DNA from: Siphonodentalium dalli
Taxonomy: Eukaryota; Mollusca; Scaphopoda; Gadilida; Siphonodentaliidae
Assembly (NCBI GenBank): GCA_032622095.1
Contig: CP136065.1
Location: 115,609,195-115,673,194, forward strand
Length of the DNA stretch: 64,000 nucleotides
Direction: 5' to 3'
How positions within the stretch are numbered: the first letter of the stretch is position 1; each line of letters opens with the position of its first letter. The notes under the pieces were generated by a model. The model did not search any database and was not told the DNA's origin. It worked only from the letters and a program-made list of their open reading frames with translations. Positions 2,206 to 55,269 of the stretch are shown piece after piece. The translations under genes and the position numbers were made by a program.

Positions 2206-2881
2206 TATAGCACTGTAATCAGTGTGAATATTTTCGGGGTATGTCGGCATTTATCGTCTTATTATGGCGATCGGTGAGCGATCGCATGCATTCATCTTCA
2301 TAACACTAGCAGTCAACGCACACAACGCCAATATTTTATCGACATCGGTCATCTCATAGAAAACACACATCGCACATGTTGGGTCCCCATTGATACATTT
2401 TGTTATAATTTATAAATAGAATAAGTACTTCTTCCAAGTTCTCGCCGTTAAAGTTTTCACAGACTACAAAATTGGCACATACGTTCTCATTCGTACATCT
2501 GGTCATACTCTTCCTGCTTGCGTGACGTCTGAAAGTCCACTTGCTGTCAGATTCTTCGAGCCCTGTCGTGGAGAACATATGTACAGAGCCTCCGCCTCGG
2601 ATGTTTTCACTGTTCAGTGCTCAGGCATTGAGAAAGTTCTCAGTGAACCAGACGTAATCTCTGCTGGTTCTCGTAGCCTTCTCTACAAATTCATCGACAT
2701 CTGACTTTAATTGAGCTGTCAATTTGCAAGATATTCTTGTACAGTGATATACTAGTCACTTTTGAAATGTTATTTTGAAACATGTGTCTGGTATATAACC
2801 ATATAGTTTCTTCCTTATGCAATGATGCTGTAAAGTAAATGATTTATTATCCACTGCAGAATTATGGGAATTTGTTCTTAA

Positions 2882-3375
2882 AGGCACGTGAGGCCTTAAT
2901 TGTCGAAAATATTCATATTTGTTCCAAACATCGTAAACAGAAAAACATTAAAACGCATACAGTTTCGTTCATATATACCATGACCATCGCGTAAACAGCA
3001 TGTTATCATAAATACCTACTATATTTTACCTAAGCAAGAGCCTGATTGGGTTACATAGGACAGCACAATGCCACTGGCTAATCACACACAAATGGCATAA
3101 ACGCTCTTTATTAGTTCCATATCAGGAATTCACCAACAAAGAACGCTCTTTATGTTTACCATCATAATATAAACAAACACCAGAAAAGTAACTTTTTATG
3201 CTTTTGTTTACATAACAATGGTTAAACATATGAGAATAACATACTGCTTATGCGATATTTCTTATTTATATACGGACAAAGTCTGTCTACATTTTGATGT
3301 TCTTTCTGTTTGTGGCGGTTTTTGACGGGTGGAAATATTTTCACAGGATACCCACCGCCAAGGCCAACCGTACCT
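2882..3375. mobile_element. 494-bp TTAA-flanked insertion, absent from copy B
   Basis: TTAA sits on both sides (2878-2881 and 3376-3379), while copy B has a single TTAA at 9731-9734 at the same point. The ends AGGCACGTGAGGCCTT and, reverse-complemented, AGGTACGGTTGGCCTT match at 12 of 16 positions. TTAA duplication is the hallmark of piggyBac-type transposition, but these termini lack the usual leading C run, so the superfamily is tentative. It has no coding capacity. Confidence 0.75.
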
Positions 3376-3663
3376 TTAATTGATTTGAAAATCATGTGTC
3401 TTGTAATTCATTTATCAGAGTTTTAAAAGCTAAAATCATGAAAAAATTCCCAATATTCTACTGTGGCTAAGGAACCATGCATTCATTTTAAACATCAATG
3501 TATTATCCAAAAATGTGGGTGACACTTGGTATTACATGTAGTTCAAAATGAATTGAATACTTTGAACAGTTATTAGGTTCAATTTTCTCCAATGATATCT
3601 GTATGAGAACATATGAAACTAACCACAATTTTTTACCCATACTTAGTGTTGATTTGCGAAAAT

Positions 3664-3832: not shown

Positions 3833-5032
3833 TAGCTCAACTTACTTGTAAGTTTGAGCTATTGCCATGGTTTGGCGTCCGTCGTCCGTGTGTGCGTGTG
3901 TCCGTGTGTCCGTCAACAATTTCCTTTGGCGCGGGCTACAGGTTGTACCTTTGGTCTGATCTTCGTGAAATTTGTCATGAATGTTGACATTGACATGTAG
4001 ATGGGAACGAGTCATTTTTGGGTCATTCGGCCAAAAAACATGGCCGCTGGCAGCCATCTTGGATTTCAAGATTCAATCCATTGGCGCGGCCTACAGGTCG
4101 TACTGTTCATCTGATCATCATGAAATTTGTCATTGATGTTAATAATGACATGTAGATGGGAACGAGTGATTTTGGGGTCGTTCGGCCAAAAAACATGGCT
4201 GCCAGTAGCCATCTTGGATTTTACTCTTTGCATGACTAAATCCTTTGGCGCGGGCTACAGGTCGTTGTTTTGGTCGGAAGTTTATGAAATTTGTCATGGA
4301 TGTTAACACTGTCATGTAGATGGGAACGAGTGATTTTGGGGTCGTTCGGCCAAAAAACATGGCTGCCAGCAGCCATCTTGGATTTTACTCTTTGCATGAC
4401 TAAATCCTTTGGCGCGGGCTACAGGTTGTACCTTTGGTCTAATATTTATGAAATTTGTCATGAATGTTGACATTGACATGTAGATGGGAACGAATCAATG
4501 TGGGGTCATTCTGCCAAAAAACATGGCCGCTGGTGGCCATCTTAGATTTCAAAATTCAATCCATTGGCGCGGGCTACAGGTCGTACTGTTCGTCTGATCA
4601 TCATGAAATTTGTCATGGATGTTAATATTGACATGTAGATGGGAACGAGTCATTTTGGGGTTGTTCGGCCCAATAAACATGGCCACCAGCAGCCATCTTG
4701 GATTTTACTCTTTGCATGACTAAATCCTTTGGCGCGGGCTACAGGTCGTAGCTTCGATCGGAACATCATGAAATTGGTCATGGATGTTAACAATGACATG
4801 TAGATGGGAACGAGTGATTTTGGGGTCGTTCGGCCCGAAAAACATGGCCGCCAGCAGCCATCTTGGATTTTACTCTTTGCATGACTAAATCCTTTGGCCC
4901 GGGCTACAGGTCGTACCTTTGGTCTGATCTTTATGAAATTTGTCATGAATGTTGACATTGACATGTAGATGGGAACGAGTCATTTTGGGGTCATTCTGCC
5001 AAAAAACATGGCCGCTGGCAGCCATCTTGGAT
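3833..5032. repeat. TAGCTCAACTT element with 155/164-bp tandem array, cut by assembly gap
   Basis: It begins with TAGCTCAACTT and its partial inverted copy (AAGTTTGAGCTATTGCCATGG), then a GTCCGTCGTCCGTGTG tract, then tandem units of about 155-164 bp. Each unit contains a GGGCTACAGGTCGTAC block, a GACATGTAGATGGGAACGAG block and an ACATGGC...GCCATCTTGG block. It runs into the N gap, so the 3' end is not seen. Small ORFs inside recur with the repeat and are not genes. Confidence 0.9.
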
Positions 5033-5132
5033 NNNNNNNNNNNNNNNNNNNNNNNNNNNNNNNNNNNNNNNNNNNNNNNNNNNNNNNNNNNNNNNNNNNN
5101 NNNNNNNNNNNNNNNNNNNNNNNNNNNNNNNN
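5033..5132. other. Assembly gap (100 N)
   Basis: Exactly 100 N, a common placeholder for a gap of unknown size. It lies inside a tandem array and between two duplicated segments, both likely causes of assembly failure. Confidence 1.
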
Positions 5133-5516
5133 AGTCAATAGTGTGTATTTATAGAGAAGTAACTGTAAAATGAAATGCGTACGTGTATAGGCAGTACATA
5201 GTATCAGTTTGCGCGAATAATATGTCGCAACCACGAGTGTACTGTTGAGGCGAACTTCCCTATAGAGCAGTAATGAATGCGCCCATGCACTGTGAGTTCG
5301 GTTTCGGCAAGCACGTGTTCGCAGGGGTTCACAATGGGGATTGCAATAAACTGAACTGCTGGTACATTTAATAAATCCCATACCGAAATATTAGTCTTGC
5401 GCTAGTCTACAGTAAGTCTTCAAATATGAAGATCATGTAGTCTTCAACTCCGAAGACTAAAATAGTTTTCACATGGAACCTAATAGAGAAAATTAAGCTT
5501 CGAAGCTCTATTTTAA
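5133..5516. other. No gene seen; unassigned sequence
   Basis: Unique-looking DNA after the gap. A short GAAGACT/AGTCTTC cluster lies at 5400-5465. No splice-bounded reading frame was seen. Confidence 0.6.
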
Positions 5517-5896
5517 CCCTTTACCCAACAGAACGGCCCTGTGCCAATGCATTCTCTTATATATGCGAGTCGACCATAGGTCGCCTCGCATATATATGAG
5601 AATGCATTGGCTTAACATATTAAAAATGATAAAATTGTCAAAGAATGTAGAAAAATATTATAAAAATTGTTTTTTTAGGCCAATGCATTCTCTTATATAT
5701 GCGAGGCGACCTATGGTCGACTCGCATATATAAGAGAATGCATTGGCACATGGCATAACTGTAACCATCACAATGTGGTCAATGAACTGGTTCCAATGAT
5801 ATCCATATTTGTATGGTGTTATTGAGACAGGCCGAAGATATTTTAGGCTGTTGAAGCTTTATTTGGGCGTTTTTGGCCGTTTTGTTGGGTAAAGGG
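5517..5896. mobile_element. piggyBac-type MITE carrying two 69-bp hairpins
   Basis: A 380-bp element flanked by TTAA at 5513-5516 and 5897-5900, with perfect 14-bp terminal inverted repeats CCCTTTACCCAACA. TTAA duplication plus CCCTTT ends is the piggyBac signature. Inside are two self-complementary blocks of exactly 69 bp (5543-5611 and 5679-5747), each folding as a 27-bp stem, one mismatch, a 5-bp inner stem and an ATA or TAT loop. There is no transposase, so it would depend on one elsewhere. Confidence 0.9.
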
Positions 5897-5900
5897 TTAA

Positions 5901-6382
5901 GTCTTCGAAGACTACTCAGTCTTCGCTTAGTCTTCGAATGGGGCGAAATATTTAAATGAGCTAAGTCTTCGAAGACTTATTTTAGTCTTCGAAGACTTAT
6001 TTTGAAGACTTGGTTTAGTCTTCGAAGACTTATTTTGAAGACTTATTTTAGCTTTTGAAGACTTACTTTGAAGATCTAATTTAGTCTTCGGAGACTTGTT
6101 TTGAAGACTTATTTTCAATTCAATTCCTTAGTTGGCAACATGTCTTCGAAGACTACTCATTCTTCGCTTAGTCTTCGAATGGGGCGAAATATTTAAATGA
6201 GCTAAGTCTTCGAAGACTTATTTTAGTCTTCGAAGACTTATTTTGAAGACTTGGTTTAGTCTTCTAAGACTTATTTTGAAGACTTATTTTAGCTTTTGAA
6301 GACTTACTTTGAAGATCTAATTTAGTCTTCGGAGACTTGTTTTGAAGACTTATTTTCAATTCAATTCCTTAGTTGGCAACAT
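5901..6382. repeat. 241-bp tandem duplication of AGTCTTCGAAGACT-rich DNA
   Basis: Two adjacent copies (5901-6141 and 6142-6382) are nearly identical. Each contains many GTCTTCGAAGAC palindromes and ends TTAGTTGGCAACATG. It starts immediately after the TTAA of the preceding MITE. Confidence 0.93.
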
Positions 6383-6870
6383 GCTTTTACATGTATTCAT
6401 ATAGAGACATGTACATGTATGGCTTATTCAGCCGCCAATTACCTCTAGCACAATGCAGATTAATCCCTGGTTTATCAGTTTGTTAATTAGCCGTCAACAG
6501 AGAAATAAAGCCACAAACTGAAAACATTGTGCTTAAATTATCGATGATTAAGTTACTTAGTTTCAACTTATATAGTGTCTAAATAGCCCAAACCACTACA
6601 CAATACTAATAACAATACTGGAACGAATGTTTATTCTTCCATATTTATATCTTATTTGTTTCTGCCCGGTTCTGCTTCAGTATAATAAGAAATCTCAGCC
6701 AGAAATTAGGCTGAACCTTGCCAGTTGGTAAAGTTGAATGCTGAAACTCAAAGTTAGTATCTGGTAATTTTCAGTAAATGCAGGAAAAGATAGCTGTCTA
6801 AAATGATATACCAGCAGAAATTGGTGTAATTTAATTGTTTACATTTAAGAAACACAGTTAATACTTTTTG
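6383..6870. other. No gene seen
   Basis: AT-rich sequence with no splice-bounded ORF or recognised repeat. It ends at the C-run that opens duplication copy B. Confidence 0.5.
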
Positions 6871-6939
6871 CCCCCCCCCCCCCCTGAAGAAACACAGTTA
6901 CTCTCTGCCCCCTCCCCTGCACAAACCCTGAATCTTTGA

Positions 6940-7740
6940 GGCCAGTTTTATACGTCGAGCCAGACACGGGTCGCGCCAGGCTAATTAGTGTGGAAATGAC
7001 AAAGTCCAAAATAGCGCAATTGGAGCACAACATATAAAACCAACTGGCGCGTCAGAATTTCTCTGGCACGACCCGACGTGCTACACGTCTGATACCGACG
7101 TGCTACACGTCTGGGGCTCGACGCTGTTTTATACGACGTGCTAAACACGGGTCGCGCTAAGATGATTCAGTGAAAACCATTCCCCATTTAGGACCCCTTT
7201 GGTGGAGAGCATGCACAAGTTTTTGGCGTCATTACATTATCTCTCGAGTCATCCTAGTGCGACCCGTGTCTGGCACGTCGTATAAAACAGCGTCGGGCCA
7301 CAGACTTGCGAATCTTGGCCGTTGTAAATATACATTGAAGGCAATTGTACGGTACTACGGGGACATGCATATATCGACTGACAAACGACGTTGCGCGAAA
7401 GTTGGGAATAAATATATATTGCAGAGATATATATTCGAAGGTTCAAGGGAAATGAATGACAAGATCCCGATTTTGAAATCAACGAAAGCGTAAATTATGA
7501 GATTCATGCACTGTATATAGAGGGCCAGTTTATAGTGCATTATCAGAGGACCCTATAGCGGAAATGATTATAGCCGACGGCATTTTGTATCAGAAATGCT
7601 AAAATTGTTCGAAATATATGATTACAGCACTCGACTGGCTCAACGTATAAATCAAACAAACGTAACACGAGCCAGAGACGCGCCAATGTCAAGCCAGGGG
7701 AAGATAGCGCGACCCGTGTTTGGCGCGTATAAAACGGGCC
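6940..7740. mobile_element. Foldback element with nested inverted copies (copy B)
   Basis: Counterpart of 64-871, with the same four-motif symmetric arrangement and GGCC ends. Confidence 0.6.
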
Positions 7741-8035
7741 TAATATTAGTGGAGAAAACATTCAAACCTAGCTGTTACATTACATAGATTGTATAGATGC
7801 ATGGTCATCTGGTATTGCAACATTTCTGAAACAATATTCATAAATTCAATATATCATAATAAGATCGAGGTACATGTAAGGATCGACTGTAAATTAGTAA
7901 AATTGGACTATAAATATATATGTATACAGGAGGTATGGCACAGCAGCAATGTTATATATTTTATGCCTCCGAAACATGGCGAGCATTGCTATTAGAACAT
8001 GCTTGGGACTATACAACACACCAGGCGCCTATTTT

Positions 8036-8284
8036 TAGAAGCAAATTTGATTTTTGAGACAATGCAAATTTTTTGAGATTGGGTGGGATACGAACCCCGG
8101 CCCGACGGCGAGCGCGCCTTGCGACTCAAAGTCCGACGTCAATACCACACGGCCACCGAAGCAACGCTGTGTGGTATTGACGTCGGACTTTGAGTCGCAA
8201 GGCGCGCTCACCGTCGGGCCGGGGTTCGTATCCCACCCAATCTCAAAAAATTTGCATTGTCTCAAAAATCAAATTTGCTTCTAT
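8036..8284. repeat. tRNA-like palindrome with centre deleted (copy B)
   Basis: The arms are the same as at 1167-1430, but the exact centre and part of the adjacent right arm (the GTTGCTTCGGTGGC segment) are missing, leaving an unpaired asymmetric centre. One arm also differs by a substitution in the GCTCGCCGTC stretch (now GCTCACCGTC). Confidence 0.8.
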
Positions 8285-10081
8285 AAATATATAGTTTGAG
8301 GCCAATGTGTAATAATTTAATATAATATAATTAAAATTTGAAAAATATTCAGTGTGAAAGTGTCAGTGTCCCAGCCTTTTTAAAGATTCTTGAACAATGG
8401 TTTTGTATAATCATATACAATGAATTTGAGTCTTTTGACCATCTTGTTTATATGTTCCAAATTTGTCTATAGCTCTCAAGCAGACTTACTTTTAAATTTC
8501 ATCATTTTACATATGCATGCACTTACCTCCAATAATTTCTACAATAAACAGGACAGTCAATAGTAAAAATTACTTCTTTGAACCATTCCAGTATGAATTT
8601 TTATGAGAGCAGAGTATGTTAACACCTTTTGCAGTGAAGTCTGTCAATAACTGTTAGTTTCAAATGACATCATATATTCCATAGAAACAAATCTTCTTCA
8701 CTAAGCTTCAAACTCTATTTAGTCTTCCAAAATTAATTTTTGGAAGACTAAGCTAATAGTCTTCCAAAATTAATCTTCTTCTCACCTAGTCTTAAAAAAT
8801 TAAGCTTCGACTCAATTAGGTCTTCCAAAAATTAGTCTTCATCTCACCTAGTCTTCCAGAATTAAGCTTCGACTCAATTAGTTTTCCAAACTTAATCTTC
8901 CATTTGCACTTAGTCTTTCAAAATTAATCTTCTCATTATGTCTTTTAAAATTAATCTTCAATTGCAAATCAGGAAGACTATTTAGTCTTCGTTGTCCATT
9001 TGAAGACTATTCAGTATACATGAAGACTTAGGGAAGATTAGTGGAAGACTATGTTGGGTATAGCACTGTAATCAGTGTGAATATTTTCGGGGTATTGTCG
9101 GCATTTATCGTCTTATTATGGCGATCGGTGAGCGATCGCATGCATTCATCTTCATAACACTAGCAGTCAACGCACACACGCCAATATTTTATCGACATCG
9201 GTCATCTCATAGAAAACACACATCGCACATGTTGGGTCCCCATTGATACATTTTGTTATAATTTATAAATAGAATAAGTACTTCTTCCAAGTTCTCGCCG
9301 TTAAAGTTTCCACAGACTACAAAATTGGCACATACGTTCTCATTCGTACATCTGGTCATACTCTTCCTGCTTGCGTGACGTCTGAAAGTCCACTTGCTGT
9401 CAGATTCTTCGAGCCCTGTCGTGGAGAACATATGTACAGAGCCTCCGCCTCGGATGTTTTCACTGTTCAGTGCTCAGACATTGAGAAAGTTCTCAGTGAA
9501 CCAGACGTAATCTCTGCTGGTTCTCGTAGCCTTCTCTACAAATTCATCGACATCTGACTTTAATTGAACTGTCAATTTGCAAGATATTCTTGTACAGTGA
9601 TATACTAGTCACTTATGAAATGTTATTTTGAAACATGTGTCTGGTATATAATCATATAGTTTCTTCCTTATGCAATGATGCTGTAAAGTAAATGATTTAT
9701 TATCCACTGCAGAATTATGGGAATTTTTTCTTAATTGATTTGAAAATCATGTGTCTTGTAATTCATTTATCAGAGTTTTAAAAGCTAAAATCATGAAAAA
9801 ATTCCCAATATTCTACTGTGGCTAAGGAACCATGCATTCATTTTAAACATCAATGTATTATCCAAAAATGTGGGTGACACTTGGTATTACATGTAGTTCA
9901 AAATGAATTGAATACTTTGAACAGTTATTAGGTTCAATTTTCTCCAATGATATCTGTATGAGAACATATGAAACTAACCACAATTTTTTACCCATACTTA
10001 GTGTTGATTTGCGAAAATTCCCCCCCCCCCTGTACTATTATTGCCCCTTTTAGCTGCATACCCGTGTGAAATGTGCATTTT

Positions 10082-14460: not shown

Positions 14461-15530
14461 ATGGCCAAAGGATTTAGTCATACAAAGAGTAAATTCCAAG
14501 ATGGCTGCTCTTGGCCATGTTTTTAAAAACAAATTTCGGTAAAAATAGGAGGCTCCTATCTAGATGTCGCCTCGAAGATCCATATGAAATTTGGTGATCA
14601 TCAGATGAGGGATGTGGTCTGTAGAGTGTGCCAAAGGATTGTCATGCAAAGAGTAAAATCCAAGATGGAATCCAAGATGGGTGCTTCATCGAAAATTTTT
14701 CATATTTGATAGCTCCCATCTAGAGGTGATTTTAAACATGCCTGTAAATTTTCCAATAAATGCAGGCTTCGGGGTGTGCCAATGGATTCAAATTTGATAT
14801 CCAAGATGGCTGCCTACAGCCATATTTTTGGACAAATTTCTGTCAAAATAGGAGGCTTCCATCTAGATGTCACTCCGAAGATCCATATGAAGTTTGGTGA
14901 TGATCAGATAATGGATGTGGTCTGTAGGGTTTGCCAAAGGATCTACAGTAATGCCTAAAGTATGACCCTTTAACCACAGCAGAATTATTGGAAATTTTTC
15001 AGGATTTAGTCGGAAATATGGCTTATTGCCATTCATTGGAAAGCTCTCACTGGGAGCTTTCCGATGAATGGCAACAAGCCATATTTCCAACTAAATTCTG
15101 AATAATTTCCCATAATTCTGCTGTGGTTGAGCTAACTTGAGGGGTTGATTATTTAGGATATTACTGTAGTGTTGCAAAGAGTAAAATGTTTCATCGAAAA
15201 TCGTATAAATTTGATAGCTCCCATCTACAGGTGATCACATTCGTGCCTGCAATATTTAAAAATGATCCGGCCATAATACGGGCTGTAGGGCGTGCTGATG
15301 GATTCAAATTTGAAATCCAAGATGGCTGTTGGTGGCCATGTTTTTCATCGGAAAATTTTATAGCTCCCATCTATAGGTCACCTTGAAGCTGCATAATGAA
15401 GTTTGCTGAAGATCGGATGAGGGATGCGGCCTGTAGGGTGTGCCAAAGGAAATTGTTGATGCACAGACTGACAACGGATGCCAACCCATGGCAATATCTC
15501 AAACTTTACTTTGTAAATTTGAGCTAAAAT
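14461..15530. repeat. Worn copy of the TAGCTC-family array, interrupted by a hairpin MITE
   Basis: Degenerate units contain GGATTTAGTCAT, AAATCCAAGATGGCTGC and ATATGAAATTTGGTGATGATCAGATGAGGGATGTGG-type blocks. It ends near 15520 with TCAAACTTTACTTTGTAAATTTGAGCTA. The copy is split by the TA-flanked element at 14946-15176, which is therefore younger. Confidence 0.75.
14946..15176. mobile_element. TA-flanked hairpin MITE with inner palindrome
   Basis: Inverted termini beginning CAGTAATGCC and, at the other end, CAGTAATATCC. TA lies at 14944-14945 and 15177-15178. Nearly the whole element is self-complementary, with a GAAAGCTCTCACTGGGAGCTTTC-type centre. It belongs to the same family as 54681-54807 and 54854-54982. 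Confidence 0.8.
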
Positions 15531-15762: not shown

Positions 15763-41477
<25,715 letters not shown>

Positions 41478-41679
41478 CAAAAGGTCTTTCTGAAGTAGAC
41501 TTCCAATGAAGAGGACCAGGCTATAATGTGTTATGTTAACACCTATAATACAAGTCTGTCCGATGAAGTTATATTAAGAAATTCGGGAAAGATTCTGCAT
41601 TTATGTGCAATGTGCGTCGATCATTATGTTAAATCATTGTCTTGCGGGATACTGATTGTTCAGCCTCAGTTCAAATTAA

Positions 41680-41934
41680 CCCTTTCATGATGGAAGCCAC
41701 GCTGGTTCAACATTAAATATCCTGTGCCAGTGCATTATCTTATATATACGAGTGTCTCATAGGGAGCCTCGCATATATAAGAGAATTCACTGGCTTACAA
41801 GGTCAAGATAAATATTGTTAGGCCAATGTATTGTCTTATATATGCGAAGTTCTCTATGGGAAACTCGCATATATAAGAGAATGCATTGGCACAGGGTTTT
41901 CACAAAATTTCAGGAGGCTCCAGTCATGGAAGGG
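41680..41934. mobile_element. piggyBac-type MITE with paired 69-bp hairpins, just after FOXK stop
   Basis: A 255-bp element flanked by TTAA (41676-41679 and 41935-41938), with imperfect inverted ends CCCTTTCATGATGGAAGCC and CCCTTCCATGACTGGAGCC. It contains two self-complementary 69-bp blocks (41726-41794 and 41822-41890) homologous to those in 5517-5896, spaced by 27 bp instead of 67. Confidence 0.88.
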
Positions 41935-42064
41935 TTAATTGATGTATATATCTTAAATTATGAATTGAAAGGCATCACTTACATTCATGATTCTGTCTCT
42001 CAAACATGTCTACTGATTGCTGAAACCATGAGGCATTTTATATCTCAAACATCTAACTTTTCAA

Positions 42065-54676: not shown

Positions 54677-54680
54677 GTTA

Positions 54681-54807
54681 CAGTAATGCCCAAAGTAATT
54701 GACCACTTAACCACAGCAGAATTATGGGTATTTTTTCAGCATTTACAATCCTCAAATTACCCATTATTCTGCTGTGGTTAAGTGGTCAATTGCTTTGAAC
54801 ATTACTG
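54681..54807. mobile_element. TA-flanked full-length hairpin MITE
   Basis: A 127-bp, almost fully self-complementary element with ends CAGTAATGCCCAAAGTAATTG and CAGTAATGTTCAAAGCAATTG, stem block CCACAGCAGAAT, and TA on both sides. Confidence 0.88.
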
Positions 54808-54853
54808 TATGATGATTGAGTTATCATTAAACCTCAAATCCTTATATTGGTTA

Positions 54854-54982
54854 CAGTAATGCCCAAAGTAATTGACCCTTTAACCACAGCATAATTATGG
54901 GTAATTTTTCAGGATTTAGAATCATGAAAAAATACACACAATTTTGCTGTGGTTAAGTGATCAATTACTTTGGACATTACTG
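54854..54982. mobile_element. TA-flanked full-length hairpin MITE, second copy
   Basis: Same family and orientation as 54681-54807, about 46 bp downstream. The 5' flanks also match (TTGGTTA), so the pair may be a tandem duplication rather than two insertions. Confidence 0.88.
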
Positions 54983-55269
54983 TATGTAGATGGAGTTAAA
55001 CCTCACATCAGTGTGTTGGGGATTTGGACCTTGACTTGGGACCTTTGGTTTTTAACGCAACAAATGCGCGTACACCTTATACACAAATTTCTTATGTAAC
55101 CAGAGTTTTTCTTGGATAAGATGAGTTTGAAGCCTGCTTACATTTCAAAATGTTGTCAGTTTTGTATTGTCTGCAGTGGATCTCGACGCGTTGAAGCAAA
55201 AGTTACAAAAGATCAAATGTGTATGTGACGAGACTATAATACAAATGAAAAAATAAATTGAGGGAGGGG

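Follow-up and report, generated by a model that had tools for sequence, protein, structure and literature searches.

Two piggyBac-type MITEs of Siphonodentalium dalli share a pair of long palindromes whose arms were probably homogenised by copying

Two short TTAA-bounded elements in a 64-kb stretch of the Siphonodentalium dalli genome (64,000 nucleotides, hereafter the window) carry the same module, a 69-bp quasi-palindrome followed by an inverted copy of itself. The elements are best read as non-autonomous TTAA (piggyBac-type) MITEs, ordinary in kind and new as members of a family, of which the window holds two copies. We propose, with a probability of a little under 0.6, that they come from a piggyBac-type MITE family in which the arms of a shared four-unit module were homogenised by template switching or conversion, the outer 27 bp were kept for transposition, and each copy decayed after insertion.

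Element 1 (5513..5900) measures 388 bp with both TTAA copies included, and element 2 (41676..41938) measures 263 bp; no strand is assigned to either. Both lie within the MITE size range (less than about 500 bp, no coding capacity), and no stop-to-stop ORF of at least 120 aa, the length class that was listed, overlaps either of them. TTAA flanks both ends of both elements, in the manner of a TTAA target-site duplication, and the terminal inverted repeats (TIRs) have the length (12-19 bp) and the start (CC[C/T]T) of piggyBac/TTAA MITEs. The TTAA at both ends and the CCCTT(T) TIRs support the type that the preliminary description of this DNA had named. The layout of element 1 between its TTAAs is asymmetric, with 26 bp, the first palindrome (H1), 67 bp, the second palindrome (H2) and 149 bp in that order. 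Its left TIR (CCCTTTACCCAACA..., 5517..5538, + strand) and right TIR (5875..5896, - strand) form the inverted repeat I5, and the inverted terminal 26 bp, TTAA included, match at 25/26 positions. In element 2, the left TIR (CCCTTTCATGATGG..., 41680..41698, + strand) and right TIR (41916..41934, - strand) form the inverted repeat I4, which is 84% identical over 25 bp with AATTAA included; 21/25 of the terminal bases match when the two bases outside TTAA are counted. When 14-bp termini were scored, CCCTTTACCCAACA of element 1 matched at 14/14, and none of 20 Markov shuffles gave a case at 0-1 mismatches, whereas CCCTTTCATGATGG against CCCTTCCATGACTG of element 2 matched at 11/14, and three mismatches correspond to 0.3 chance cases per window. 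Despite this weak 14-bp TIR, element 2 is secure, since its alignment to its own reverse complement runs from one end to the other (74%, 274 columns). The two elements had been described as differing in their termini, which is true beyond CCCTTT and not of the outermost bases, since both start with TTAACCCTTT and have the TIR matches just given. The hairpin pair is indeed common to the two elements, and their ends beyond CCCTTT, their flanks and their spacers gave no useful alignment.

Element 1 adjoins a 241-bp tandem duplication (5901-6383) in which GTCTTCGAAGAC palindromes are abundant. Positions 1-2881 and 6878-9734 form a duplicate of 98.6% identity around an assembly gap (Ns at 5033-5132), and may represent two haplotypes joined one after the other. 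No empty site for element 1 was found in this neighbouring tandem duplicate. The two copies of the duplicate are filled (2878-3379) and empty (9728-9740) for a TTAA-flanked 498-bp insertion, the empty site reading TTCTTAATTGATT. The insertion ends in AGGCACG/AGGTACG, matches at 12/20 of its first terminal bases, and is distinct from elements 1 and 2. Thus, TTAA elements have moved here, by insertion or by clean excision, since the duplicate or haplotype pair split. Another palindrome lies at 1161-1436 and 8030-8289, with 107-bp perfect arms (1192-1406) in the first copy and 15 nt absent from the centre of the second, which indicates that palindrome centres have been remodelled in this window. 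It contains stretches that we take to be tRNA-like A- and B-box-like motifs; ARAGORN found no tRNA in the window. Two of the four translated exon candidates in the window carry parts of a forkhead domain (PF00250), and the solved structures closest to the second part are FOXK1 and FOXK2 (best four, E 7e-29 to 6e-26).

The four palindromes are where the preliminary description had placed them, with 69 bp in each, outer arms of 27 bp, an ATA loop (TAT in the inverted copies), and spacers of 67 bp in element 1 and 27 bp in element 2. H1 (5543..5611, + strand) occupies bp 27-95 from the left tip of element 1, and H2 (5679..5747, - strand) occupies bp 150-218 from the right tip as an inverted copy of H1 (68/69, one difference between H1 and reverse-complemented H2). 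H3 (41726..41794, + strand) occupies bp 47-115 from the left tip of element 2, and H4 (41822..41890, - strand) occupies bp 45-113 from the right tip as an inverted copy of H3 (58/69, or 11 differences). All four represent the GCCAATGCATTCTCTTATATATGCGAG palindrome, and each element contains a unit of about 33 bp four times in alternating orientation. In one polarity, 53 of the 69 columns are identical in H1-H4, and the base that prevails among the four outer arms of element 2 agrees with that of the element 1 arm at 26/27 positions, position 5 being a tie between A and G in element 2. A T-C mismatch at columns 28/42 has the same polarity in all four palindromes (4/4), which places the inverted pair already in the common ancestor; judged by the aligned columns, the module and its inverted pair clearly predate the split of elements 1 and 2. 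H1-H4 are not chance palindromes: they are among the nine found when the window was scanned without gaps for palindromes with loops of 3-4 nt, at a threshold reached by 0/10 first-order Markov shuffles, and the only copies of the 27-bp arm in the window, when up to 9 mismatches in 27 were allowed, were these eight.

As RNA, each single hairpin is predicted to fold with a z score between -6.8 and -14.3, and 0/200 shuffles were as stable for each of the eight strands. The lowest-energy predicted RNA fold of the whole element, on either strand, is a single long hairpin in which H1 pairs with H2 or H3 with H4 (z -25.4 and -21.6 for the two strands of element 1, -17.6 and -18.2 for those of element 2). 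Two separate hairpins per element are, in these predictions, an alternative that is less stable than the single long hairpin.

The preliminary description had drawn attention to the inner stem, as altered on both sides between the elements with pairing kept. The change is real and small: it comprises two adjacent pairs in all arms and a third in H4. At pairs 30/40 and 31/39, the GA that element 1 has at arm positions 30-31 is replaced by TC in all four element 2 arms. Pair 29/41 shows changes on both sides in H4 alone; one H3 arm carries G there, and its partner retains the C of element 1. The reported inner stem TCTC/GGGA fits H3 (GTCTC/GGGAG) and does not fit H4, which reads TTCCC/GAGAA in the same polarity. 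In the outer stem, pair 5/65 is changed on both sides in H3 only, and all other changes of element 2 are one-sided within each hairpin.

With the palindromes in a common polarity, the 32 pairs amount to 128 cells, and the commonest pair occupies 112 of these while 16 depart from it; columns 28/42 stand outside these counts and would add four unpaired cells. Six of the departing cells are changed on both sides and pair (30/40 and 31/39 in both H3 and H4, 29/41 in H4, and 5/65 in H3), two are G-U and eight are unpaired; on the + strand the figures are six, three and seven. When G-U is allowed, pairing is thus kept in eight and broken in eight of the 16 cells in the common polarity, and kept in nine and broken in seven on the + strand, close to the even balance that the preliminary description had named as evidence against its claim. 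Under Watson-Crick rules, 6 cells are kept and 14 mismatched among 132, or 10 mismatched without 28/42. Element 2 has 9 broken pairs without 28/42 and 6 kept cells, 4 of which belong to pairs 30-31. The covariation score was reached by 1/500 column shuffles in the common polarity and by 2/500 on the + strand, fractions that come from four related rows and are not a probability, and in the true register it exceeded the score of all six slid versions. The covariation is real, yet small: it comes from two elements and about three events (30-31; 29/41 in H4; 5/65 in H3).

Divergence within element 1 is too low for comparison (1/69 between H1 and H2, 1/26 in the TIR). In element 2, H3 and H4 differ at 11/69 positions (16%) and the TIRs at 4/25 (16%), or 4/19 without AATTAA. 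Since both hairpins and TIRs have diverged further than in element 1, element 2 is the older insertion; its hairpins and its termini have changed to the same degree, so that constraint after insertion is not visible. When neutral decay at 8% per site was simulated for a symmetric ancestor, the result was 9.7 broken against 0.14 restored pairs for each element, with at least one restored pair in 13% of the runs. The differences between H3 and H4 fall on partner columns above random expectation (four pairs, 5/65, 12/58, 29/41 and 32/38; P 0.001, post hoc). The outer arms of element 2 carry eight changes, which are confined to 5/27 positions (P 0.016). This clustering could reflect site-specific tolerance before insertion. 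Along 41726-41890, the arm changes of element 2 repeat at positions 5, 8, 12, 29 and 32, often to different bases.

A second palindromic MITE family in the window, which starts with TACAGTAATG (14944-15168, 54679-54809 and 54852-54984), was used as a control. Two of its copies are 42 bp apart, and the first copy has a longer inner stem. Among the 196 cells of this family, one is changed on both sides and 35 are mismatched, some of the latter at ragged alignment ends. More pairs are kept in H1-H4 than in the control when cells are counted (6:14, Fisher P 0.006; 6:10, P 0.002); counted by events, the same contrast is weak (3:10, P 0.05; 2:10, P 0.15 if 29-31 is one event). The excess of kept pairs argues against pure independent decay, and for concerted copying or selection.

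We prefer copying to selection on two grounds: the main change forms one contiguous block that is found on all four element 2 arms, and, as the section of the published work compared here reports, template switching can produce multibase compensatory changes in hairpins (PMC8794818). The family would have begun as an ancestral TTAA MITE already bearing the 69-bp quasi-palindrome and its inverted copy, and its subfamilies would have come to differ in their ends, their flanks and the spacer. Template switching or conversion between the inverted repeats would have re-copied the arms in mobile master copies, spreading a change near the palindrome centre onto every arm, while the outer 27 bp would have been retained between lineages as double-stranded palindromic subterminal transposase-binding sites; each inserted copy would then have decayed without visible constraint. 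Several findings count against this proposal. The T-C mismatch at 28/42, directly beside the main change, was left unrepaired although homogenisation should mend it. The changes at 29/41 (H4) and 5/65 (H3) are not common to all arms and need an event inside one hairpin. A 69-bp palindrome far exceeds the 12-19-bp sites of known transposases, only two elements are available, and the clustering of H3/H4 differences on partner columns is left unexplained.

The transposase-site role of the 27-bp arms is the most economical guess because the interior of the coral CMITEs is conserved and piggyBac and piggyBat transposases bind duplex palindromes. The CMITEs are piggyBac-type MITEs of Acropora corals; in the published account, as far as it was available to us, their interior is more conserved than their TIRs, and its authors suggested that the interior takes part in transposition (PMC2872659). 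They resemble elements 1 and 2 in the TTAA target-site duplication, in CCCTTT-type ends (most CMITE families) and in an interior that varies less from family to family than the TIRs do, and differ in having interiors of about 75 bp within elements of about 100 bp (PMC2872659, same portion). The printed 60-bp CMITE consensus had no match inside element 1 or 2 at E up to 10. The CMITE interior was also considered as a second case of paired palindromes and set aside, the fold of the printed 60-bp consensus being not unusual (z -0.65). The window also holds arrays of 164-bp tandem units (3922-5032, 25133-27518 and 30998-35028), in many of which 11-13 nt match the interior of the coral CMITEs (AGAGTAAAATC; E 0.04-0.6), a match that may be due to chance. 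In the excerpts compared here, the subterminal palindromes of piggyBac and piggyBat are bound as duplex DNA by two transposase C-terminal domains (PMC7351741, PMC11707139). They lie within about 120 bp of the left tip in piggyBat, and three of the four palindromes of elements 1 and 2 are found no further than 115 bp from a tip; unlike the 69-bp H1-H4, those of piggyBac and piggyBat are 12-19 bp long (same excerpts). Of the printed motifs, neither the piggyBac left-end palindrome nor the piggyBat GCGGGA motif has a close match, the nearest being a single 9-mer, located at the end of H2, that carries two mismatches. By analogy with these systems, H1-H4 may plausibly be double-stranded transposase-binding palindromes.

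Like foldback or palindromic MITEs (the Made1/mir-548 type and the second family in the window), elements 1 and 2 consist mostly or entirely of a long inverted repeat; unlike them, each half contains its own palindrome, giving four alternating unit copies. Stem patterns gave no match in viral_contigs (exact and gapped) or genome_contigs (exact), which cover viruses, bacteria and archaea, where animal repeats are not expected. In the open-licence PubMed Central literature that was searched, stem strings had no match, the matches to TIR strings were, among those listed, not on transposons as judged by title and abstract start, and no published report of these elements was found.

It is unlikely that the hairpins are instead under selection as folded structures, with extruded DNA hairpins or cruciforms read in transposition or replication and the inner-stem changes being compensatory. 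The both-sides changes at 30/40 and 31/39 (H3, H4), 29/41 (H4) and 5/65 (H3), the covariation score against shuffled and slid alignments, and the excess of kept pairs over the control family would all fit such selection. The exact 69 bp in 4/4 palindromes would fit as well, although four palindromes that descend from one unit and have changed little are expected to be equal in length. Against it stand the two elements and about three events, the 10 Watson-Crick mismatches outside 28/42, the equal divergence of hairpins and TIRs in element 2, and a lowest-energy fold that is the H1:H2 or H3:H4 duplex on both strands. The observations do not support the constraint on folded DNA or RNA that the preliminary description had proposed.

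The palindrome pair could also be a mobile or acquired module that became nested in two TTAA elements of unrelated origin, a possibility that we hold to be improbable. The alignment between the elements is limited to the module (5538-5753 with 41721-41896), and their ends and flanks differ, as such an insertion would predict; however, no exact target duplication of 2-10 bp is present at the borders of the module or the hairpins, both hosts are TTAA elements starting with CCCTTT, and element 2 is symmetric around the module. Quite improbable, in our judgement, is a structure-selected module passing between TTAA elements with different ends, which the transposition machinery would read either as hairpins in extruded form or as a double palindrome of unusual length; the inner stem would then be free in sequence and not in pairing.

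It is very improbable that the stems give rise to small RNAs as miRNA- or siRNA-like precursors (compare human mir-548 from Made1 MITEs): their size and stability are pre-miRNA-like, miRNAs derived from MITEs exist according to the part of PMC1784062 compared here, and a relaxed Rfam search gave 33 sub-threshold matches in the element 1 region and 13 in the element 2 region, nearly all to miRNA families (mir-3927 on H1-H4 at 25-39 bits; the best, MIR841, over H1-H2 at 94.5 bits, E 1e-20), but these scores are far under the gathering scores (90 for mir-3927, 200 for MIR841), and the matches span many family names, mostly of plant and animal miRNAs, on both strands. At gathering score, Rfam found 0 families in the window. 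The sub-threshold matches probably reflect hairpin models responding to any long hairpin, and an RNA role for H1-H4 finds no support here.

If independent compensatory changes were seen in many copies of the family, they would suggest that folded DNA is read in piggyBac-type transposition, a reading of internal palindromes that is not described in those portions of the literature compared here. As they stand, elements 1 and 2 are a compact case of an easily misread pattern, in which the base-pair covariation of a MITE can stem from DNA copying between inverted arms, not from selection on RNA.
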